Below, in pieces: positions 1,413-18,346 of a DNA stretch of 20,464 nt. Both the position numbers and the translations under genes were made by a program. Numbering within the stretch: the stretch's first letter is position 1; each line of letters starts with the position of its first letter. The stretch is from a virus. The stretch spans positions 1 to 20,464 of the IMG/VR virus record IMGVR_UViG_3300020074_000156. One strand, written 5' to 3'. Under the pieces are notes generated by a model that saw nothing but the letters and a program-made list of their open reading frames with translations, made no database searches and had not been told where the DNA came from.

Positions 1413-2591
1413 TCAGATAGTAGTATCAGTTATTTGTCCAATATGACCGAATGGATTGCCCTCGGTAAAATCGATAATATCATCATCCGCTTCTTCAAAC
1501 GTATAATTTTGGTCGATAGTATCGTCGGTATTAGTATTATTTAGTGTGTTATAAGAGAAAGGACTCCACAGAGCACCAGATGTCAACCCCTTAATTGTCT
1601 CAGCAGTATTAAATGTGCCCGTGCGATTAATTATCTGCAATTCCCTCGTTGAAGAATTCCATGATTTGACTTCTGCTCTATTGTCCCTTGGCGATGGGGC
1701 GATTGTTATCGTGGGCGCGGCAGCATATCCACTACCAGGATGAGTAAGAGTTATTCCAGTAACAATACCCGATGCAGAAACCACGGCAGTGCCAGTTGCT
1801 GTTGTGCCACCAGGCGGCGGAGCACTAAATGTTACAGATGGAAGTATTAGTGGATTATAAAATTCACCACCATCAGTAATGCTTGGAGTAGTGACTGCTC
1901 CGCTGGATAGTGTTGTTGTTGCGGTTGCTGTATGCAAATTGCCAACTACTTCTTCGCCAACAGTAAAGTTTCCAACTCCACCAGGATCCATAATCAACTT
2001 AATCGCATTTGCGAATGCAGTTTCAATAGCGTCAATTTCAGCAACTCCAGTATCCAACTCCTCATCACTATATTCAAAGATCTCGCAACGGCACTCCCAA
2101 ACATATCCCTTACCAAGTTGATAAAATGGTCTTTCTGCCTCTACAAATTTAATTTCAAATAAATGCTTTGTTGCAGGAAACCAGATCAGATCACCTTCAT
2201 TTGGGCGACCTTCAACATTTAGAGTAGAATTATCATCTACTTTTTGTTTAAATTTTTTGCGAGAAAAAATAAAAGTTGTTTTATCTTCAATTCGTACTCC
2301 AAATTTTGAAAGTAATTCTCCTTGCCCTTCCCACCCATCAACATTATTTACATACGCCCTAACAGTAAGTGCTTGTGTGAATCTACTATTCTCTACCTCA
2401 TTTAATATAGTATCTCTATTCACATATGTACGAGGTAAGTAGTAGATATTTTGACCATAAATTTCAATACTCTCGACAATCAAATTCTCAATAAAAGTTT
2501 GCTCTTGTGCAGATCCATTTACATTTAATCTACAAGAACTATCATAATCTGAGTAGAAGCAATTTGTTGGAGGCGTATTTGAATATGTCAT
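1413..2591 (-). CDS. 14: Neck protein gp14 with an extra C-terminal beta-rich region
   Basis: This 392-residue protein has a core that matches T4 gp14, a head-completion protein that forms the neck ring with gp13 and accepts the tail. The core covers about residues 11-190: YSDYD near the start, IYYLPRTYVNRDTILNE at 49-65, TFIFSRKKF at 106-114, GDLIWFPATKHLFEI at 133-147, and FYQLGKGYVWECRCEIFEY at 156-174. T4 gp14 has 256 residues, so this one is about 136 longer. The extra part contains a VGE/SWN module split by a GSGY-type module (see separate entries). The acidic end (FEEADDDIIDFTEGNPFG) probably belongs to the original gp14. The ATG follows the gp13 stop by one base and has an AGGA ribosome site four bases upstream. 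Order 13-14-15 is as in T4. Confidence 0.93.
   Translation of the reverse strand: MTYSNTPPTNCFYSDYDSSCRLNVNGSAQEQTFIENLIVESIEIYGQNIYYLPRTYVNRDTILNEVENSRFTQALTVRAYVNNVDGWEGQGELLSKFGVRIEDKTTFIFSRKKFKQKVDDNSTLNVEGRPNEGDLIWFPATKHLFEIKFVEAERPFYQLGKGYVWECRCEIFEYSDEELDTGVAEIDAIETAFANAIKLIMDPGGVGNFTVGEEVVGNLHTATATTTLSSGAVTTPSITDGGEFYNPLILPSVTFSAPPPGGTTATGTAVVSASGIVTGITLTHPGSGYAAAPTITIAPSPRDNRAEVKSWNSSTRELQIINRTGTFNTAETIKGLTSGALWSPFSYNTLNNTNTDDTIDQNYTFEEADDDIIDFTEGNPFGHIGQITDTTI
1680..1940 (-). other. GSGY-type beta module inserted in gp14
   Basis: Residues about 219-304 of gp14 hold a glycine-, threonine- and proline-rich segment: ITDGGEFYNPLILPSVTFS, then GIVTGITLTHPGSGYAAAPT. It has the same shape as units in the YHYH-like protein (GKVTSISVNDPGEYYQDPP), in gp8 and at the fibre tip. 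It lies exactly between FTVGEEVVG (1941-1967) and RAEVKSWN (1656-1679), two halves that are adjacent in the comparable module of the YHYH-like protein. The reading is therefore an insertion of one module into another. Boundaries are approximate. Confidence 0.7.
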
Positions 2592-2592
2592 T

Positions 2593-3396
2593 TTATCCTA
2601 TTAGATCCATTGGTGGGTATTCATAAGTATTGCGTAGTCTTTCCTCAAGATCCTTTTTAAATTGGGAAGCATCTTCTAAAATTTGACGACCATTAAGAGT
2701 CACACCACCTAGCATTTGTATACCATCATATTTACTTAGATTGCGTCCCCATTGTTGTTGAAATAGTGCTTCTACATAATCTTTCAACCAAGCATCATTA
2801 TACATGGATGTATAATCATCTGGATCCTGGCGCACAGTGCAATCTACTAAAATCCAATCTCCCGCATTTAAACTATCCCAATCAAAATCTAAATATAATC
2901 TATTTTGATATTGATTCCATTTCACTCTACGATTAGCTTGAGAATTCGTCACCCAATCAAGAGTTTCTAGATATTGAGATGTCATAAAATAATGCAAGAT
3001 CTGCCCATGAGTCATTCCGTAAATATCATTTAAGAAAATTTGATATTTGATATTGAAGATATTTCCAGGAACTACACTAGAAGCTCCAATATTAGTGTAT
3101 ACATGATTTATTCCAATAACACCATCTGGCATACTTACATAGTTTTTATTTTCATACCAATTTCCACCAAGAGATTCTGCAGTCTTGGAGGCAGCAATAA
3201 TGGCATCAGTTACTTGAATTTTAATAAAAGCACCAATACTAGCATCATAATGATACTCTTGCATATAATCAATAGCTTCTTCAATTAAATCATCCAACTG
3301 CTCATCACAGACATTGATATCTACCGCAGGGTAACCTAACCTACGAAGACAATACATTTTTAGTTCTTGTTTTGTTGCGGGTCTAGTTGCTGACAT
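2593..3396 (-). CDS. 13: Neck protein gp13 (head completion)
   Basis: This 267-residue protein is a probable gp13, which binds the portal-connector region after packaging and, with gp14, forms the neck. T4 gp13 is 309 residues. Recognisable features are an N-terminal helical region (KQELKMYCLRRLGYPAVDIN, then EQLDDLIEEAIDYMQEYHYD, about residues 9-52), a central beta region (NKNYVSMPDGVIGINHVYTN at about 83-102) and the conserved tail (LYLDFDWDSLNAGDWILVDC, then DAWLKDYVEALFQQQWGRNL). The C-terminus carries the typical GGVTLNGRQILEDA segment. The order fibre-13-14-15-16 agrees with the T4 order wac-13-14-15-16. The ATG lies six bases after the fibre stop. The ribosome site is weak. Confidence 0.93.
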   Translation of the reverse strand: MSATRPATKQELKMYCLRRLGYPAVDINVCDEQLDDLIEEAIDYMQEYHYDASIGAFIKIQVTDAIIAASKTAESLGGNWYENKNYVSMPDGVIGINHVYTNIGASSVVPGNIFNIKYQIFLNDIYGMTHGQILHYFMTSQYLETLDWVTNSQANRRVKWNQYQNRLYLDFDWDSLNAGDWILVDCTVRQDPDDYTSMYNDAWLKDYVEALFQQQWGRNLSKYDGIQMLGGVTLNGRQILEDASQFKKDLEERLRNTYEYPPMDLIG

Positions 3397-3402
3397 GTCT
3401 TA

Positions 3403-6400
3403 TCAAGCGAATGAGGAAATTGTGAGTGTTGTTACATTATTAGCGGAGACTGTTTCTCCAACCTCAAAGAATCCATCTACAGCGTTAACTGTTGCTGAAG
3501 TTGCACCAAGAGCAGTAATGACTCCAGTAGTACCAGTTGTAGCACCAGTAAGAGTGTTTCCAACTTTCATTTCTTTTACTGCACTAATAGTAATAGTTGC
3601 TTGCGGCGTAGTACCACCTGTAATAGTAATCACATCATTTGGCGAATATCCAGTGCCATCATTGTTAATCGTTACGGAAGTAACAATACCTGCAGTAGCA
3701 ACAATATTAACAGTCAATCCACTACCAGTGCCACCAGTTGTAGCAACACCAGTTGAAGTTAGATAACCATTACCACCACTTAGAGTTGCATTGTTAAAAG
3801 AGACAACATCTCCAGGAGTGGGATCTCCAGAAAGATTCAATACCAGAGTAGTATTAGTTTCTAGATTATTTAACATTGCCTTCAATTGTGCAAATGCATT
3901 ATCTAATTGATCCTGCACTCTTGCTTTAGTATAATAAAGTTTCGTGCCCTCTGCTAGATTTGTTGTCGTGAAATTAGATATACTGCTTACCTGGCCAGTT
4001 ACATTACCAGTAACATTACCAGTAACATTACCAGTCAGAGCACCAGAAAATGTTGCTGCGGTGACGTTACCAGAGGCATTAAGGCTTGTTGCACCTATAG
4101 CCCCAACGGTAATATTAGGAGTTCCAGAAAGACCCGTTGCATTACCAGTTACATTACCTGTTACATTACCAATCACATTACCAGTCAAGTTTGCTGTAAT
4201 TGTGCCCGCAGCAAAGTTTCCAGAGGCATCACGAAGTACGAGGTTATTTGAAGAATTTCCTGATGTTGATGCAACGTTAATAACGGTATTACCAGCGATA
4301 CCATCACCATTAGTAATCGTTATACCTGAACTTGCTGTGGCAGAAATACTTCTTTGTGCATATGTATTTGCTGCGGTTCTCACTACATAACCAGTGCCTG
4401 CCATTGCCGCTAAAGCAGTGATATCAGCGTCTACAAATGTAGTAGATATCGTTACATCTGCACTACCGTTGAAACTAACGGTGCCTGATACTGCCCCGCT
4501 TACTGCAATATTACGAGCAGTTTGTAGAGTAGTTGCAGTAGAAGAATTTCCAGTCAATGCTGCAGTGATTGTGCCAGCAGCAAAGTTTCCAGAAGGATCC
4601 CTAACTACAACTGTGTTTGATGTATTTGTTGATGCTGTTGTAAATCCATCTAATAAATCTGCATTTAAATTATTGACTTTAGTTGTAGATGTAACGATAA
4701 ATGGTGCCGTGCCACCAGCAACGTTAGATGTAATCACACCATCTACTGTTAATGCACCATCGATATTTGCATTAAAATCAACACTTAAAGCAGTGCCAGA
4801 TCCAGTCAATTTTAAGCTACCAGCACGGAGAGATCCATCGGTACCAGTAAATATTTCAGATGAATTGGTTGCAGTAGTTAAGAAAACATATTCTAGCGTT
4901 GATCTATCGAGACCGAAGAAACCAACTTTCGCTGTAGTGTCGAAATAACGGAATTCAACACCACGATCCTTAGAATCATCAGAGACTGGTGCCGTGTCGC
5001 CACCCAAAGTAATAATAGGGTCATCGACAGTAGTGACCGTAGAGTTGACCGTAGTGGTTGTTCCATTGACAGTAAGGTTACCTCCAACAGTTAGATTACC
5101 ATGTGTTGATACAGCGCCAGTTAAATTAGTGACACCAAAAGCAACTCTGGAATTTGTATTATCCCAGATATAAAAATCACCACCGATATATGCGTTTTTG
5201 GATACCCTAAGTCCACCATCCGTTGTTAATGAAACCGCATTATCAGCAAAACTTGTAACATCATCAACATTAGAAACTGCAACTCTTCCAGCAAATGTCG
5301 CATTACCCGATTGAGTTGTTGTCCCACTAATTGTGGAGTTTCCAAAGACTCTCATGCTACCAGCAACTGCTAGGTTTTTAGCAACTCCAAGACCACCATT
5401 AAGTCTAACAGCACCATCAGCAGTGTAAGATACTCCAGATATAGTCTGATCAGTTGTATTTGTCAGTGAAGTAACACCTGTCACACCGAGAGTGCTATTG
5501 ATTTGAGTTGCACTGGTGATAGTTGCAGTACCTGCAATAGTTGTATTACCAGAAGAAGAATCTACAACAAATTTATCAACTGCAGATCCATTTCGAATCT
5601 TAAAGAATTCAGTAGAAGCACTATCAGATCCAACGATTGTTACATTCTTATTAAATGTTGAGTTATCAGTTACGGTAAAGGTGCCAGATGCACTTGTGTT
5701 ACCAGTTTGAGCATCAACTGAGAATGTCGTTGCTCCAGCAAGTCCATTCTTAACAAATAAATCATTTCCGTGATTTGTTATACCGTAAATATCAGTTTGT
5801 CCAGTTTGTCCATATACACGGAAAATAACCAAGTCACTACCTGCCTGACTTCCTGGAGTATAATTTGTATTATGTCTTACTTGTAAATCCCCACCGACAT
5901 ATAAATCATCTCTAATGACAGCGCCACCACGACAGAATATTGAGGAAAACCAATCATTAAGATAAGTTGGAGTTGCAGTATCGTAGAAGTTTACGTCATC
6001 AAAGAATGTTTCTTTATTGTAGTGGTTTACTTCTCCCGCAATTCCACCACCAGTTGAAGTACCAAAATCGACTGATCCAAATACTTTTAAATTTTCACCA
6101 ACAATCAAGCTTTTTGCAATATCAACGCCACCAGAAACTAATAGAGCCCCTGGATGTGAGGCCATCGATGAATATGTCGTGCCAGAGGTGATTGATCCTG
6201 CAAAATTGGCATCAGTGGTATTACTTAATGTTGTAATACCACTAACTGCCAATGTTGAAGATAGAGTTGTGCCTTGACTAACTCTAAGTTGCTTAGCAAT
6301 ACCTACACCACCAGAAGTGATAATAGATCCTGTTGTGGTTGAAGTTGAATCTGTAGTATCTGTAGTAACGATTTGCCCAACTGTATCAATTTTACCAGAG

Positions 6401-8937
6401 CTCGCAGTAACAGCAAATTTATATGGTGAATTACCATCAGTATCAATTACAAGATTATTTTTAAATACTGATAATCCGTTATGTGTGGTTGTACCATCAA
6501 TATCTAATGTGCCATATACTTTTACATTTCCACCAATAACCATAGAGCTTGCAATTGAAGCTCCTCCATCTACCTTTAATGCACCATAAGTTACTAGTGA
6601 TCCATAGGCTGTACCTGCTAAAGCATTAGTAATATTGGTATTGGTAGTATTTTGAATATTGACTATGGATGCGGATTGGGTTGTTAGATTACCAGTAAGT
6701 GTTGTTGCACCAGTAACTCCAAGAGTGCCATTAAAACTTCCATTGCCTGTAGTTGATTGGAATTCAATTTTTGTTGTCCCTACTCCATCCTTTAATTGTA
6801 GAGTCTTAGATGCGCCTTGTAATACAAAATTGTCATCGAAACGAGAAGTACTACGCACTCTTAATGTGCTAGTAATATCTGTTAGGCCTCCAATAAATAC
6901 ATCGTTACTTACACCAATACCACCAGTAACTACTAACGTGCCAGTAGTTGCCGATGTTGAATTGGTGCCAGTGGTTAACTTGAGATTGCCTGCTAATAGA
7001 CCAGCATTGGTGCCAGAAAATACTTCGGAAGTATTTGTAGCATCGAAATAGAAGGCGAATCCACCGACATGACCCGCGAGATCAGTATACGAATCATCGT
7101 AACCATAGAATCCAAGTTTTGCTGCACTATCATAATATCTAAAACTGACACCTCTATCAAGATTATCATCAGAAGTTGGAGCAGTATCACCACCAAGAGT
7201 GATAATTGGATCGTCCACTTGCAATGTGGTAGAGTTAACCGTCGTTGTGGTGCCGTCAACCTGTAAATTGCCCCAAACTCTGACGGTGCCAGTAACGGCA
7301 CGATCATCACCAGGATCCAAGTTGAGGGTCGCATTAGTTGTAGCAATATAGTTATCTTGGAAACGATAATCTTCAACATGAATTTTACCTGTAGATTCAC
7401 TTGCTTGAATACTAACAACATCTTCAGCATTTAGATTTAATGTGCTTGTACCAGCACCAGAATTGCTGACAGAAAGGGTTACAGATCTAGCAGATGCACT
7501 AGCTTGAGTGCTAGTAATTGTTAGATTTCCGTCGCCAGTTTTATTAATTGTCTGTGCTGTAGTTGCATCTAATGTAATATCTGCGTGTCCGAAAAAACTT
7601 CTGACATTAATGTCAACTTCTCCAGATCCACTATTACCAGTATTATTGGCGCTAAACAGTAAACTGCCTGCGGTGTTATTAACTTTGAGATAATTTAAAT
7701 AATTAAATCCTTTATATGCAGTAGATGCTGTTAATTCTTGATCTAATTCAAAATCTTCTTTTGTATTAGTATCAGAGAAAGAAATTCTATTATTTTGTAG
7801 TTGAGTATTATCTACACCAAGTGCAGCAATTGTAACATGGCCATTTGAATCTACATCAAAATCTTCCTGTGCAAACGAGGCCAATCCTTTCTGTTCGGTT
7901 GCCGCAGCCGCGAGATATCTCCACCCTCCAGCATCGCTGGCATTAGTATGAGTAGGAGCACCAGCGCCCGCAGCGATTGCTCTAATTGCTTGGTAGACAT
8001 TACCGCCATTTTTGATGATGTCGTATCTTGAATAAGTTGTCCCAGCATTATACGAATTATACTTTGCGCCTTCGGTTGCGGTTGCAATAGGAAGATTGGT
8101 AGATGAAGTTAAACGTCCAAATGTGTCAACAGTATATTTTACTGTATTTACAGTTTGTGTGCCAAATGGTTCATTATTTGATCCAACTGCAGATACTGAA
8201 TTTAAATTTTCAGTATTGTAATCACCCGTTACAACAGTTGTTGTAATCAAATCGATGGTTGGGTTACCAGATAAACCAGCACCTTGGGTAACAGCAATTC
8301 TTCCTCCAGTACCAGTAATTGTCCTGGTAGACATTGCACCACCACTGGTTCTTGAAATAATGCCCGTTGTGCTTAGAGCGGAAATTGCAGCAAGATCTAA
8401 ATCATATGGTTGTGCTGATTGCCCCTCAACATTACCATTCAATCCATATTCAGAAAGAGTCGTTGGACTTGAAGCATTTATGACTCTTCCTTTAGCATCG
8501 ACAGTTACCTTTGTATAAGTACCAGATGAAGTGCTAGTGGCATCATAGTGAGGTAATGAAGATATTAATTGTAATGCAGCATTAATATTTAAGTTTGCTG
8601 ATCCATCAAAGTTTCCCGCACCAGTCAAATCCTGTGATAGTTGAATTTGGCGAGTAGATGCTAATCTTGTGGCAGTAGAAGCATTACCAATAATGGTTGC
8701 AGTAATAATACCAGCAGAGAAGTTTCCATCAGCATCTCTTGCCACCATAGTATTTGGTGTATTAGATACAGACTCGATAGGTCTCTCATATTTTAGAGAG
8801 TTCCATGCAGTAACACCGTCTCCTATTTTTAAGCGACCTGTATCTAGCTCAATCCCCACTTCACCTTGAGCAAGAGTTGGGTTAACGTTTGCCCACTCCT
8901 GAGCACCACCTCTCCTTAATTGAATTCTATTTGCCAT
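3403..8937 (-). CDS. Long repetitive tail fibre protein with an Mtd-like N-terminus
   Basis: This 1844-residue protein is a probable trimeric tail fibre that touches the host surface. Residues 1-50 (RIQLRRGGAQEWANVNPTLA, then GEVGIELDTGRLKIGDGVTA) match the small domain that starts many phage fibres and the major tropism determinant, which probably attaches the fibre to the virion. Residues about 60-120 and 1440-1490 are related fibre repeats (DGNFSAGIITATIIGNASTA versus SGNFAAGTITAALTGNSSTA). A CBM5/12-like patch lies near 293-343. The middle has seven GG-G-AK-L-VGG-L-V-G repeats, flanked by two copies of a block of about 105 residues. LYYTKARVQDQL near the end is a common fibre element. The last 135 residues carry GSGY and VGE modules. 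I see no S74-type intramolecular chaperone. Ser, Thr, Gly, Asn and Ala are very abundant and cysteine is absent or rare. A dedicated promoter and an upstream terminator isolate this gene. Confidence 0.88.
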   Translation of the reverse strand: MANRIQLRRGGAQEWANVNPTLAQGEVGIELDTGRLKIGDGVTAWNSLKYERPIESVSNTPNTMVARDADGNFSAGIITATIIGNASTATRLASTRQIQLSQDLTGAGNFDGSANLNINAALQLISSLPHYDATSTSSGTYTKVTVDAKGRVINASSPTTLSEYGLNGNVEGQSAQPYDLDLAAISALSTTGIISRTSGGAMSTRTITGTGGRIAVTQGAGLSGNPTIDLITTTVVTGDYNTENLNSVSAVGSNNEPFGTQTVNTVKYTVDTFGRLTSSTNLPIATATEGAKYNSYNAGTTYSRYDIIKNGGNVYQAIRAIAAGAGAPTHTNASDAGGWRYLAAAATEQKGLASFAQEDFDVDSNGHVTIAALGVDNTQLQNNRISFSDTNTKEDFELDQELTASTAYKGFNYLNYLKVNNTAGSLLFSANNTGNSGSGEVDINVRSFFGHADITLDATTAQTINKTGDGNLTITSTQASASARSVTLSVSNSGAGTSTLNLNAEDVVSIQASESTGKIHVEDYRFQDNYIATTNATLNLDPGDDRAVTGTVRVWGNLQVDGTTTTVNSTTLQVDDPIITLGGDTAPTSDDNLDRGVSFRYYDSAAKLGFYGYDDSYTDLAGHVGGFAFYFDATNTSEVFSGTNAGLLAGNLKLTTGTNSTSATTGTLVVTGGIGVSNDVFIGGLTDITSTLRVRSTSRFDDNFVLQGASKTLQLKDGVGTTKIEFQSTTGNGSFNGTLGVTGATTLTGNLTTQSASIVNIQNTTNTNITNALAGTAYGSLVTYGALKVDGGASIASSMVIGGNVKVYGTLDIDGTTTHNGLSVFKNNLVIDTDGNSPYKFAVTASSGKIDTVGQIVTTDTTDSTSTTTGSIITSGGVGIAKQLRVSQGTTLSSTLAVSGITTLSNTTDANFAGSITSGTTYSSMASHPGALLVSGGVDIAKSLIVGENLKVFGSVDFGTSTGGGIAGEVNHYNKETFFDDVNFYDTATPTYLNDWFSSIFCRGGAVIRDDLYVGGDLQVRHNTNYTPGSQAGSDLVIFRVYGQTGQTDIYGITNHGNDLFVKNGLAGATTFSVDAQTGNTSASGTFTVTDNSTFNKNVTIVGSDSASTEFFKIRNGSAVDKFVVDSSSGNTTIAGTATITSATQINSTLGVTGVTSLTNTTDQTISGVSYTADGAVRLNGGLGVAKNLAVAGSMRVFGNSTISGTTTQSGNATFAGRVAVSNVDDVTSFADNAVSLTTDGGLRVSKNAYIGGDFYIWDNTNSRVAFGVTNLTGAVSTHGNLTVGGNLTVNGTTTTVNSTVTTVDDPIITLGGDTAPVSDDSKDRGVEFRYFDTTAKVGFFGLDRSTLEYVFLTTATNSSEIFTGTDGSLRAGSLKLTGSGTALSVDFNANIDGALTVDGVITSNVAGGTAPFIVTSTTKVNNLNADLLDGFTTASTNTSNTVVVRDPSGNFAAGTITAALTGNSSTATTLQTARNIAVSGAVSGTVSFNGSADVTISTTFVDADITALAAMAGTGYVVRTAANTYAQRSISATASSGITITNGDGIAGNTVINVASTSGNSSNNLVLRDASGNFAAGTITANLTGNVIGNVTGNVTGNATGLSGTPNITVGAIGATSLNASGNVTAATFSGALTGNVTGNVTGNVTGQVSSISNFTTTNLAEGTKLYYTKARVQDQLDNAFAQLKAMLNNLETNTTLVLNLSGDPTPGDVVSFNNATLSGGNGYLTSTGVATTGGTGSGLTVNIVATAGIVTSVTINNDGTGYSPNDVITITGGTTPQATITISAVKEMKVGNTLTGATTGTTGVITALGATSATVNAVDGFFEVGETVSANNVTTLTISSFA
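3406..3810 (-). other. GSGY plus VGE modules forming the C-terminal end of the fibre
   Basis: Residues about 1710-1844 contain a GSGY-type unit (GIVTSVTINNDGTGYSPNDV) followed by a VGE-type unit (MKVGNTLTGATTGTTGVITA, then FFEVGETVSANN). The same two elements are embedded in gp14, gp8 and the YHYH-like protein, but here they form the extreme C-terminus of the fibre. The role is unknown. Either a structural cap or receptor contact would fit the position. Confidence 0.65.
3995..4030 (-). repeat. Three tandem 12-base units coding GNVT repeats
   Basis: On the plus strand the unit ccagtWacatta occurs three times without interruption, followed by a degenerate fourth unit at 4031-4042. On the coding strand it gives repeated GNVT tetrapeptides. 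Unit length is a multiple of three, so gain or loss of a unit changes fibre length but not the frame. Confidence 0.9.
4145..4180 (-). repeat. Second set of 12-base GNVT-coding units
   Basis: Three units of the form cc(a/t)(g/a)t(t/c)acatta lie next to one another, about 115 bases from the first set and closely related to it. They code for GNV(I/T) repeats. The two sets may derive from one another through slippage or recombination. Confidence 0.85.
4790..5095 (-). repeat. Second copy of a duplicated fibre block of about 105 residues
   Basis: Fibre residues about 1282-1383 read GGNLTVNGTTTTVNSTVTTV, then DDPIITLGGDTAPVSDDSKD, RGVEFRYFDTTAKVGFFGLD and SSEIFTGTDGSLRAGSLKL. They match the block at 6965-7285 almost position for position. 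The second copy is slightly shorter in the loop after FFGLD. Confidence 0.88.
5160..6940 (-). repeat. Seven diverged fibre-shaft repeats (GG-G-AK-L-VGG-L-V-G)
   Basis: Seven protein repeats share a core: GGIGVSNDVFIGG, GGASIASSMVIGGNVKVYG, GGVGIAKQLRVSQG, GGVDIAKSLIVGENLKVFG, GGAVIRDDLYVGGDLQV, GGLGVAKNLAVAGSMRVFG and GGLRVSKNAYIGGDFYIWD. Spacing is uneven, from about 60 to 180 residues. The pattern fits the shaft of a trimeric beta-structured fibre. The DNA is too diverged for simple slippage. Confidence 0.8.
6965..7285 (-). repeat. First copy of the duplicated fibre block of about 105 residues
   Basis: Fibre residues about 552-658 contain WGNLQVDGTTTTVNSTTLQV, then DDPIITLGGDTAPTSDDNLD, RGVSFRYYDSAAKLGFYGYD and TSEVFSGTNAGLLAGNLKL. 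The block is repeated about 730 residues later. The two copies bracket the shaft repeats, which suggests an internal duplication marking two similar positions along the fibre. Confidence 0.88.
7911..8063 (-). other. Carbohydrate-binding-like patch (CBM5/12 type) in the fibre
   Basis: Fibre residues about 293-343 read YNAGTTYSRYDIIKNGGNVY, then QAI, a loop with APTHTNASDAGG, and WRYL. This aromatic pattern (YxxGxxYxxxDIIxxxGxxYxA...P...W) is that of small chitin/cellulose-binding modules of the CBM5/12 type. The match is by eye, so a sugar-binding role is inference. Confidence 0.45.
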
Positions 8938-9020: not shown

Positions 9021-9242
9021 TCATTCTTCTGTATCAGTTTCGGCAGATTCTTCAGATTCTTCCTCTTCCGATTTTTCTTCCGAATAATATTGCAATGTTT
9101 CAATTGCTCCTTGTAGTTTTAGAGCAGTTACTTCATTATCTTTGATCTTAGATGCAAGTTGCTGATTCTCTTCTAGCAGCGCAGTATAGCGTTGTTTAAA
9201 TTGAGTCAACATTTCTTCTTGAGAAACTTTTTCAATTGTCAT
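9021..9242 (-). CDS. Small acidic coiled-coil protein, unknown function
   Basis: This 73-residue protein has no recognised family. Residues about 7-54 look like a continuous amphipathic helix or coiled coil (MLTQFKQRYTALLEENQQLA, then SKIKDNEVTALKLQGAIETL). It is followed by YYSEEK and a strongly acidic tail of Glu, Ser and Asp (SEEEESEESAETDTEE). The ATG at 9242 overlaps the end of the preceding gene by 11 bases, which suggests coupled translation. A strong terminator follows the stop. Lying between the giant baseplate-type protein and the fibre, it could be a small fibre- or baseplate-assembly factor, but the sequence shows only its shape. Confidence 0.8.
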   Translation of the reverse strand: MTIEKVSQEEMLTQFKQRYTALLEENQQLASKIKDNEVTALKLQGAIETLQYYSEEKSEEEESEESAETDTEE

Positions 9243-9483
9243 AATTGTTACTCTGATTTTTTACTAACGTCAGTAATAATGCCTTAATAGCATCCATATC
9301 CGATTTTAACTCAGAAACATCATCTTGTAAAGCTTGTTGTTTCTTACGATCGTCTACACGGCGGTTATACGCCGCCATATATTTATCATATTCAGATTCA
9401 TTTGCATTGATGATGGCATTTGATTCTGGATCTCTATACCATCCATCTTTCCCATCTACGGGAATTAATTTTCTAGTATTCAT
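9232..9483 (-). CDS. Small coiled-coil protein, unknown function
   Basis: This 83-residue protein starts three bases after the stop of the giant structural gene and overlaps the next gene by 11 bases. The N-terminal half has an ordered-looking motif (DGKDGWYRDPESNAIINANE, about residues 10-29), then SEYDKYMAAYNRRVDD. Residues about 47-76 form a likely coiled coil with hydrophobic residues in heptad spacing (QALQDDVSELKSDMDAIKAL, then LLTLV). There is no membrane segment or signal peptide. I believe similar small proteins occur at this place in marine T4-like phages, but I cannot name a family. An assembly or virion-linker role is inferred from the context only. Confidence 0.82.
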   Translation of the reverse strand: MNTRKLIPVDGKDGWYRDPESNAIINANESEYDKYMAAYNRRVDDRKKQQALQDDVSELKSDMDAIKALLLTLVKNQSNNYDN

Positions 9484-16813: not shown

Positions 16814-18346
16814 TTAAAACTCGATTACGATTTTGATATCTTCTATTTGGTCATTAGCGCGGCCGATAGCGCGTCTGTTATCTATATAGATAATTTGTCC
16901 AGTGTTGGATCTGATCTCTGGTTTTGCATATCCAGTATTAAATTTCATTCCCAAGTCATACTCTGTATTATTGATGGTTCTTGTAGAAGTATTGGGAACT
17001 GATGGGAAATTAACATCTGGTTGTCCAGCTGCACCAGAAGTAGCACCACTTACAACGTTTGATCCATCAAATTCATTCAGAGTACCAGTAACTTCTGGAA
17101 AAATACCATCAACAGAATTTTGATAGTATTTTAAAACCTTAGTAATTGGATTCCAAGAAATTACTCTTCCACGAGCAGTAACCGAGGTGCCCCCAACAAC
17201 TCTATTTTGAGCAATAACTTCATCTGGAACGTAATTTCCTTGAAAAGTTGGAGAAAAAATTACAGCCCTTGTCCCAGATACTGTTAGATCTGCAATTAAT
17301 TCATCAGTACCAAATTTTTTGGGATTAGTAACAAGACCAATTCTTCTGTAGTCATTATCAATTGGAAAATCTCCAGCACCTTCATCATAAGACAATTTAC
17401 TATTCACCATCACACGATATGCACCCAATTCAACTGTTGAATCATATCCATGCCCATTTGGAGGAGGAATGATTACATCAACCTGTGATCCAGTTCCAGT
17501 GCCAATGCCAGCAATATTATCAATACCAATTTTACCAAAGGTATAATTAATACCACCTGAAGTTACCGTAGCAGAAATAATCTTACCACCATCAACAACA
17601 ATAGAAGCTCGGCCGCCAGTACCATCTCCATTGATGGGGACATTATCATAAGTGCCATTATTATATCCAGATCCAGCAGAATTGATTACAACAGTATCAA
17701 TTTCTCCACTAACTGCATTTGTTTTTACAGCATCATTTGTAAATACTGGCATGTAATCATTGGAGAAAAACTTCAAAACTGAAGCAACTGGAATTGTGTA
17801 AAGATACTTCCAACGATATCCATCTGCTGTTGTAATAACTGCTGTAGATGTGCCAGTTGGCTCAACGGTAGATGGTTTTCCATTTGGATCAGATGGTGAG
17901 GTGCCATTGTAAATGCACTTATAAACTTGATACTGAGAGTTTACAACGTAGAAATCCGAGTCATATAATTTTGTAGCACCAGAAGAAGCGGTTTTACTGG
18001 GAGAATAATCATGACGATACATGTCATAAGTATAACCCAAACCACCCGTTGTTTGCTCAGGTGGAGTCCAGTCGATTCTTCTAATAACTTGTATTGTGTC
18101 AGAAGATAAGACACGTTTCATTGAAATTAGATCATCATATGATCCAGAAAATTCTTGGAAAGAATCTACAGCTTGTGGGGGAACATTCTCATCATCCCAT
18201 GGTTGAGGTCTGCCAATAAAAATGTATAAACGGTCTCTTGTTTCTCCTGCAGCGGCGTCTGTTTGAGTCGGAATAGGACCCTCCAGTGCTTTAATGAATT
18301 TTTTCGCAGAAAAAATTCTGAATTGATCAGTAAGTAATGCAGCCAT
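16814..18346 (-). CDS. 8: Baseplate wedge protein gp8
   Basis: This 510-residue protein is a probable gp8, a dimeric component of each baseplate wedge. T4 gp8 is 334 residues. Shared landmarks are the N-terminal strand with RLYIFIGRPQPWDDENVPP (about residues 39-57; T4 has IFITFGRSEPW), the conserved IRRIDWTPP (88-96; T4 has IPRRDWG), and TADGYRWKYLYTIP (173-186; T4 has GDGYVWEYLFEIP). The extra length is largely a GSGY-type region (about 215-298) and a VGE/SWN-type region (about 371-437) absent from T4 gp8. The ATG is fixed by an in-frame TAA two codons upstream. A late promoter precedes it. A perfect AGGAGG lies 17 bases from the ATG, which is unusually far. Confidence 0.93.
   Translation of the reverse strand: MAALLTDQFRIFSAKKFIKALEGPIPTQTDAAAGETRDRLYIFIGRPQPWDDENVPPQAVDSFQEFSGSYDDLISMKRVLSSDTIQVIRRIDWTPPEQTTGGLGYTYDMYRHDYSPSKTASSGATKLYDSDFYVVNSQYQVYKCIYNGTSPSDPNGKPSTVEPTGTSTAVITTADGYRWKYLYTIPVASVLKFFSNDYMPVFTNDAVKTNAVSGEIDTVVINSAGSGYNNGTYDNVPINGDGTGGRASIVVDGGKIISATVTSGGINYTFGKIGIDNIAGIGTGTGSQVDVIIPPPNGHGYDSTVELGAYRVMVNSKLSYDEGAGDFPIDNDYRRIGLVTNPKKFGTDELIADLTVSGTRAVIFSPTFQGNYVPDEVIAQNRVVGGTSVTARGRVISWNPITKVLKYYQNSVDGIFPEVTGTLNEFDGSNVVSGATSGAAGQPDVNFPSVPNTSTRTINNTEYDLGMKFNTGYAKPEIRSNTGQIIYIDNRRAIGRANDQIEDIKIVIEF
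17030..17245 (-). other. VGE/SWN module in gp8
   Basis: Residues about 371-437 of gp8 read VPDEVIAQNRVVGGTSVTAR, then GRVISWNPITKVLKYYQN and VVSGATSGA. This matches the gp14 element (AEVKSWNSSTRELQIINRTG, then IKGLTSGA) in order and spacing. Confidence 0.65.
17455..17700 (-). other. GSGY-type beta module in gp8
   Basis: Residues about 215-298 of gp8 contain IDTVVINSAGSGYNNGTYDN, then GDGTGGRASIVVDGGKIISA and TVTSGGINYTFGKIG. Two units are visible, each of the form 'G-K-I/V-S-x-x-V/I-x-x-G-x-x-Y', like the tandem units in the YHYH-like protein. Confidence 0.65.

Follow-up and report, generated by a model that had tools for sequence, protein, structure and literature searches.

In an ECOD survey of domain insertions, architectures of the A1-B-A2 and A1-B1-C-B2-A2 type are described, with nesting to six levels in cyanobacterial RNA polymerase and inserts that are smaller than their hosts in 77% of events (PMC13114784). 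The main text of that survey uses neither the word phage nor the word viral (PMC13114784). In phages, T4 Hoc and the exchanged Ig-like virion domains carry variable beta domains on a conserved virion-binding part (PMC10385173). The neck protein gp14 of T4 has 256 aa, of which residues 178-256 are disordered until the tail joins and are in contact with gp15 in the virion (PMC12270204).

The gp14 analyzed here is encoded in a window of 20,464 nucleotides (the whole stretch of DNA that was analyzed, positions 1 to 20,464 of IMG/VR virus record IMGVR_UViG_3300020074_000156). It shares the core fold of T4 gp14 (PDB 9mkb, 9lu4-9lu7), but the C-terminal arm of T4 gp14 is without the modules described below. 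As in the ECOD architectures, one domain interrupts another and the inserted domain can itself be interrupted (PMC13114784). However, the gp14 host module of ~68 aa bears an insert of ~87 aa, which can in turn bear a propeller of ~357 aa, and each of these levels is polymorphic among close relatives. While the Hoc domains form a linear string in a nonessential head protein, the gp14 modules are nested in the arm of a conserved neck component. We found no paper on nested modules in gp14 in the open literature searched. Nested insertion as such is a known architecture, but for a core neck protein that literature appears to contain no description of polymorphic stacking. What is unusual in gp14 is that empty and filled forms persist at successive levels of one conserved neck gene, and that the inserts exceed their hosts.

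Layout of gp14 in the window

The protein was identified as head closure Hc2 by phrog_460 (E 8e-177) and PF11649 (E 2e-34), a profile match over the core, and its core matches the T4 gp14 structure 9mkb (phmmer E 2e-27; Foldseek E 2e-11). The gene lies between gp13 (2593-3396) and gp15 (625-1410), the same 13-14-15 gene order as in T4. The interval 1656-1967 corresponds to residues 209-312 and includes the motifs FTVGEEVVG (residues 209-217), GSGY at 286 and the start of RAEVKSWNSSTRELQI, which begins at 305. The small beta module is called A and the unit within it B; A[B] denotes the filled form and A[B[x]] a form in which B is itself interrupted. The features are as follows:

1413-2591, minus strand: gp14 (head closure Hc2, neck protein), 392 aa; phrog_460, PF11649
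2007-2591, minus strand: gp14 core, residues 1-195, T4 gp14 homologue; phmmer and Foldseek to 9mkb
1941-2006, minus strand: first half of module A, residues 196-217 (..FTVGEEVVG); A-only HMM and alignment with uninterrupted gp14
1680-1940, minus strand: inserted unit B (two GSGY-type repeats), residues 218-304; missing from P-RSM3, P-RSM6, P-SSM7, Syn30 and others
within 1680-1940, minus strand: minimal insert of unit B, ~219/225-301/305; splice scan
1827-1931, minus strand: B repeat 1, residues 221-255; model strands 223-229, 232-240, 252-255
1701-1799, minus strand: B repeat 2, residues 265-297; model strands 266-271, 277-284, 295-297
1896-1907, minus strand: B hairpin turn 229-232 (SSGA), the propeller site in L055, L173 and L174, empty in the window; alignment position of relatives
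1800-1826, minus strand: B inter-repeat loop 256-264, the GTGY-type site in S-BM1, S-MbCM6, L190 and L417, empty in the window; relatives
1542-1679, minus strand: second half of module A, residues 305-350; A-only HMM, model strands 305-312, 317-324, 333-335, 344-350
1416-1541, minus strand: gp14 C-terminal tail, residues 351-392 (..NPFG..), not part of the exchanged cassette; identity back at core level in pairs with swapped cassettes

In the AlphaFold model, block-mean pLDDT is 83-92 over residues 201-320, and strands are predicted in both halves of A and in both B repeats. The model as a whole has a mean pLDDT of 69 and a pTM of 0.40.

Module A with and without unit B

An earlier note on this DNA had proposed that gp14 carries two halves of one module split by a GSGY-type unit, as would be left by insertion of one domain into a loop of another. 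This was borne out, with a gap of 87 residues (218-304), and at the level of sequence it is confirmed that the window gp14 carries two halves of one small module split by unit B. The relatives cleanly lacking the insert, which the note had set as a test, exist: the contiguous module GTFTVGETITGGTSNVTAEVKSF is found in gp14 of P-RSM3, P-RSM6, P-SSM4, P-SSM7, Syn30 and many viral contigs. The uninterrupted module reads GTFTVGETITGGTSNVTAEVKSFDASTRTLIVINRSGTF in P-RSM3 and is likewise unbroken in P-RSM6, while P-SSM4, P-SSM7, Syn19, Syn30 and others combine it with a gp14 of ~308 aa. These empty forms join the halves of A through ~5 residues. At least 98 distinct A-only and at least 92 distinct A[B] sequences occur in the gp14 loci examined, counts that are lower bounds and not prevalences. 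The A[B] form was found in 283 phage records at query coverage of at least 80%.

The excision of B was evaluated with an HMM trained solely on gp14 proteins without the insert. The spliced window protein scored 68.8 bits in full, whereas the unspliced protein was split in two, with 56.7 bits for the best piece. Among 2,715 scored trial excisions, the best 12 reached 72-76 bits against a median of 54, and all 12 take out ~219-226 to 297-305. With the same HMM, the YHYH-like protein also shows the module in contiguous form (E 3.9e-8), so the resemblance between the two proteins is not due to chance. The spacer in that protein is 8 residues (DESGVKAT) and not ten as first counted. As in an A1-B-A2 arrangement, the uninterrupted host domain exists and the inserted unit is found alone elsewhere; in other virion proteins, A and B each occur independently. 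Unit B matches 11 further phage families beyond gp14, of which 10 are virion proteins, as well as units in the YHYH-like protein. The empty forms, the excision scan and the separate existence of A and B thus support the proposed insertion of one domain into a loop of another. The suggestion that the insert accounts for much of the excess of 136 residues over T4 holds for the ~82-87 residues of unit B, but most of the remainder is module A itself.

As for the origin of B, a tblastn search for a donor phage gene of B or of the GTGY unit returned gp14s only, and no mobility machinery or target duplication was seen in the junctions read by eye. A recent donor within the window was rejected, as the candidate was just a 29-base match at 86%. 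A foreign origin, for which the GC bump over B might speak, was rejected as well: third-position GC shows no notable rise in B (0.25, compared with 0.21 for the core and 0.32-0.37 for the halves of A), and in 108 of 127 relatives B has a lower value than the core. The bump is a product of codons for Gly, Ala, Thr and Pro.

Units resembling A and B were also seen in other virion genes of the window. An 1844-aa fibre-like protein (3403-8937, minus strand; Mtd_N, phrog_697), at the position of the T4 wac gene, has a B-like unit (residues 1720-1773, iE 3e-4) and a weak A-like one at its C-terminus. In gp8 (16814-18346, minus strand, 510 aa) there is a B-like unit at ~206-269 and a weak A-like module at ~382-418, and gp8 may have grown in the same way as gp14. 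A small ORF of 83 aa (9232-9483, minus strand) lies between two large virion genes.

Third-level inserts and probable exchange of the cassette

In some relatives unit B is itself interrupted. The gp14 of L055 (contig IMGVR_UViG_3300025483_000423) has 748 aa, and its extra 357 residues (L055:4201-5271), at the first hairpin turn of B, are a seven-repeat FG-GAP_2 propeller (PF14312 E 5e-77, seven stretches). L173 and L174 have the same arrangement, with 89% and 71% identity to L055; these three metagenomic contigs are the sole known source of the propeller forms, and their genes are in frame, mutually different and use one common site. In the model of L055 many propeller blocks are predicted with pLDDT ~90 and match Kelch and TolB propellers in Foldseek, while the gp14 core is poorly predicted. 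The nearest phage relatives of the propeller by tblastn are other virion proteins, in S-TIM5/61/66 (52%) and S-MbCM6 (43%). A different insert, a GTGY-type unit of ~95 aa, occupies the loop between the B repeats in S-BM1, S-MbCM6 and contigs L190 and L417, and is present in the deposited phage genomes S-BM1 and S-MbCM6/S-MbCM25. Contig L183 has neither insert, and its core DNA is ~91% identical to that of L173 (propeller) as well as that of L169 (GTGY). On the core tree, monophyly was rejected neither for the propeller carriers (p 0.22) nor for the GTGY carriers (p 0.21), and independent insertion is therefore not claimed. In five ACG-2014f-type gp14s of 554-559 aa (L384, L386, L403, L407 and L408), the second half of A appears to hold a further insert, located after GEEL.. 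and before the final strand of the module.

The trees of the gp14 core and of module A are in conflict. On the core tree we counted 4 changes of insertion state (careful tree), 3 (quick tree) or 6 (more rows), unrooted counts in which gain and loss are indistinguishable, and a single A-only clade was rejected (AU p 1.5e-67). The module A tree has 1 such change, but the core lineages are scattered over it with 11 changes, and a core lineage as one clade was rejected (p 8e-30). Both p values are optimistic, as the tested clade was named after the trees had been seen. The module tree is unrooted and has 64-67 columns, and support for its split drops to 87/83 when longer-branched rows are added. 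In pairs with similar cores and different cassettes, identity drops across the module and is again at core level in the tail. Between L502 and L052, third-position identity is 71% in core and tail but 42% and 49% in the module halves. It may be that residues close to the insert have co-adapted with it, so that sequences cluster by state without shared ancestry; co-adaptation as the whole cause is, however, disfavoured because silent sites fall as well, and only across the cassette. Our results suggest that a single entry of B into A probably underlies the sampled A[B] cassettes, and that gp14 cores have since exchanged cassettes as wholes, A or A[B]. L419, with an intermediate module sequence, may be a second insertion. 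To the earlier reading it should be added that the piece that moves between phages at present looks like the whole cassette and not B alone.

Proposed history and role of the gp14 arm

In the history we propose, the C-terminal arm of gp14 would have carried module A, and, prior to the divergence of the sampled A[B] cassettes, the two-repeat unit B would have been inserted in a loop of this module. Later, in a few relatives, a third domain, either the propeller or the GTGY-type unit, would have entered a hairpin or loop of B. Hairpins and loops serve as the insertion sites; an extra domain at such places can leave the host fold intact. Through recombination at its edges, the complete cassette (A, A[B] or A[B[x]]) would pass from the gp14 gene of one lineage to that of another, and each genome would keep its own core and last ~40 residues. 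We observed directly that the sequence is nested, that every level has empty and filled forms and that the trees conflict, and we put the whole account, nested insertion in the gp14 arm together with cassette exchange, at a probability of roughly 0.85.

A different order of events would have A[B] as the ancestral state of the clade, with the short forms produced several times by clean loss of B. The four to six state changes required by the core tree can be read in this way, as unrooted counts do not separate gain from loss. However, the module tree brings the short forms together, which is unexpected under repeated independent losses. The sister ACG-2014f-type gp14s (L083, L330-L409) belong to the same core family and contain the same two kinds of module, but here the GSGY units form a tandem row ahead of an unbroken A instead of interrupting it. 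The module of the divergent relative L510 is also uninterrupted. Because A and B each exist alone, B must in any case have entered A at some point, and we regard repeated loss as an unlikely course.

Less probable still is that the halves never formed one module and that residues 196-350 are a longer continuous beta region, the short gp14s having a different C-terminal domain with a similar motif. The A-only and A[B] cassette types do have many substitutions between them (aa identity of 50-67% in the halves), yet both halves can be aligned over their full length with uninterrupted modules, the top-scoring excisions fall in one place, and the same contiguous module recurs in the YHYH-like protein. 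That the inserts are artefacts of assembly or strain mixture is scarcely credible. The restriction of the propeller to metagenomic contigs would be compatible with it, but A[B] is found in hundreds of phage records, the GTGY insert is present in deposited genomes, and the three propeller genes combine intact frames and one shared site with clear sequence differences.

Regarding nested insertion with cassette exchange, the cassette sits in the region corresponding to the T4 gp14 C-terminal arm that meets gp15. The correspondence is by position after the core, since an HMM comparison of the last 40 residues of gp14 with T4 did not show homology (E 0.47). This placement would probably expose the cassette, in up to six copies, on the outside of the head-tail joint. 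The least certain part is what the displayed cassettes do: like the Ig-like domains of Hoc on the head (PMC10385173), they might be variable surface binders or decorations, with a role in weak surface binding. We also tentatively consider, at somewhat less than even odds, that the gp14 arm could have evolved into a docking site at which display domains are interchangeable and recursively nested. Marine T4-group phages would then vary the exterior of the head-tail joint by cassette swaps and by insertion into the hairpins of earlier inserts, with some inserts several times the size of their hosts.

Single finished structures are the usual evidence for domain insertion. In gp14, the steps are traceable and testable because empty and filled forms survive at two successive levels. 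The finding points to an apparently undescribed variable surface that may lie at the head-tail joint of abundant marine phages.
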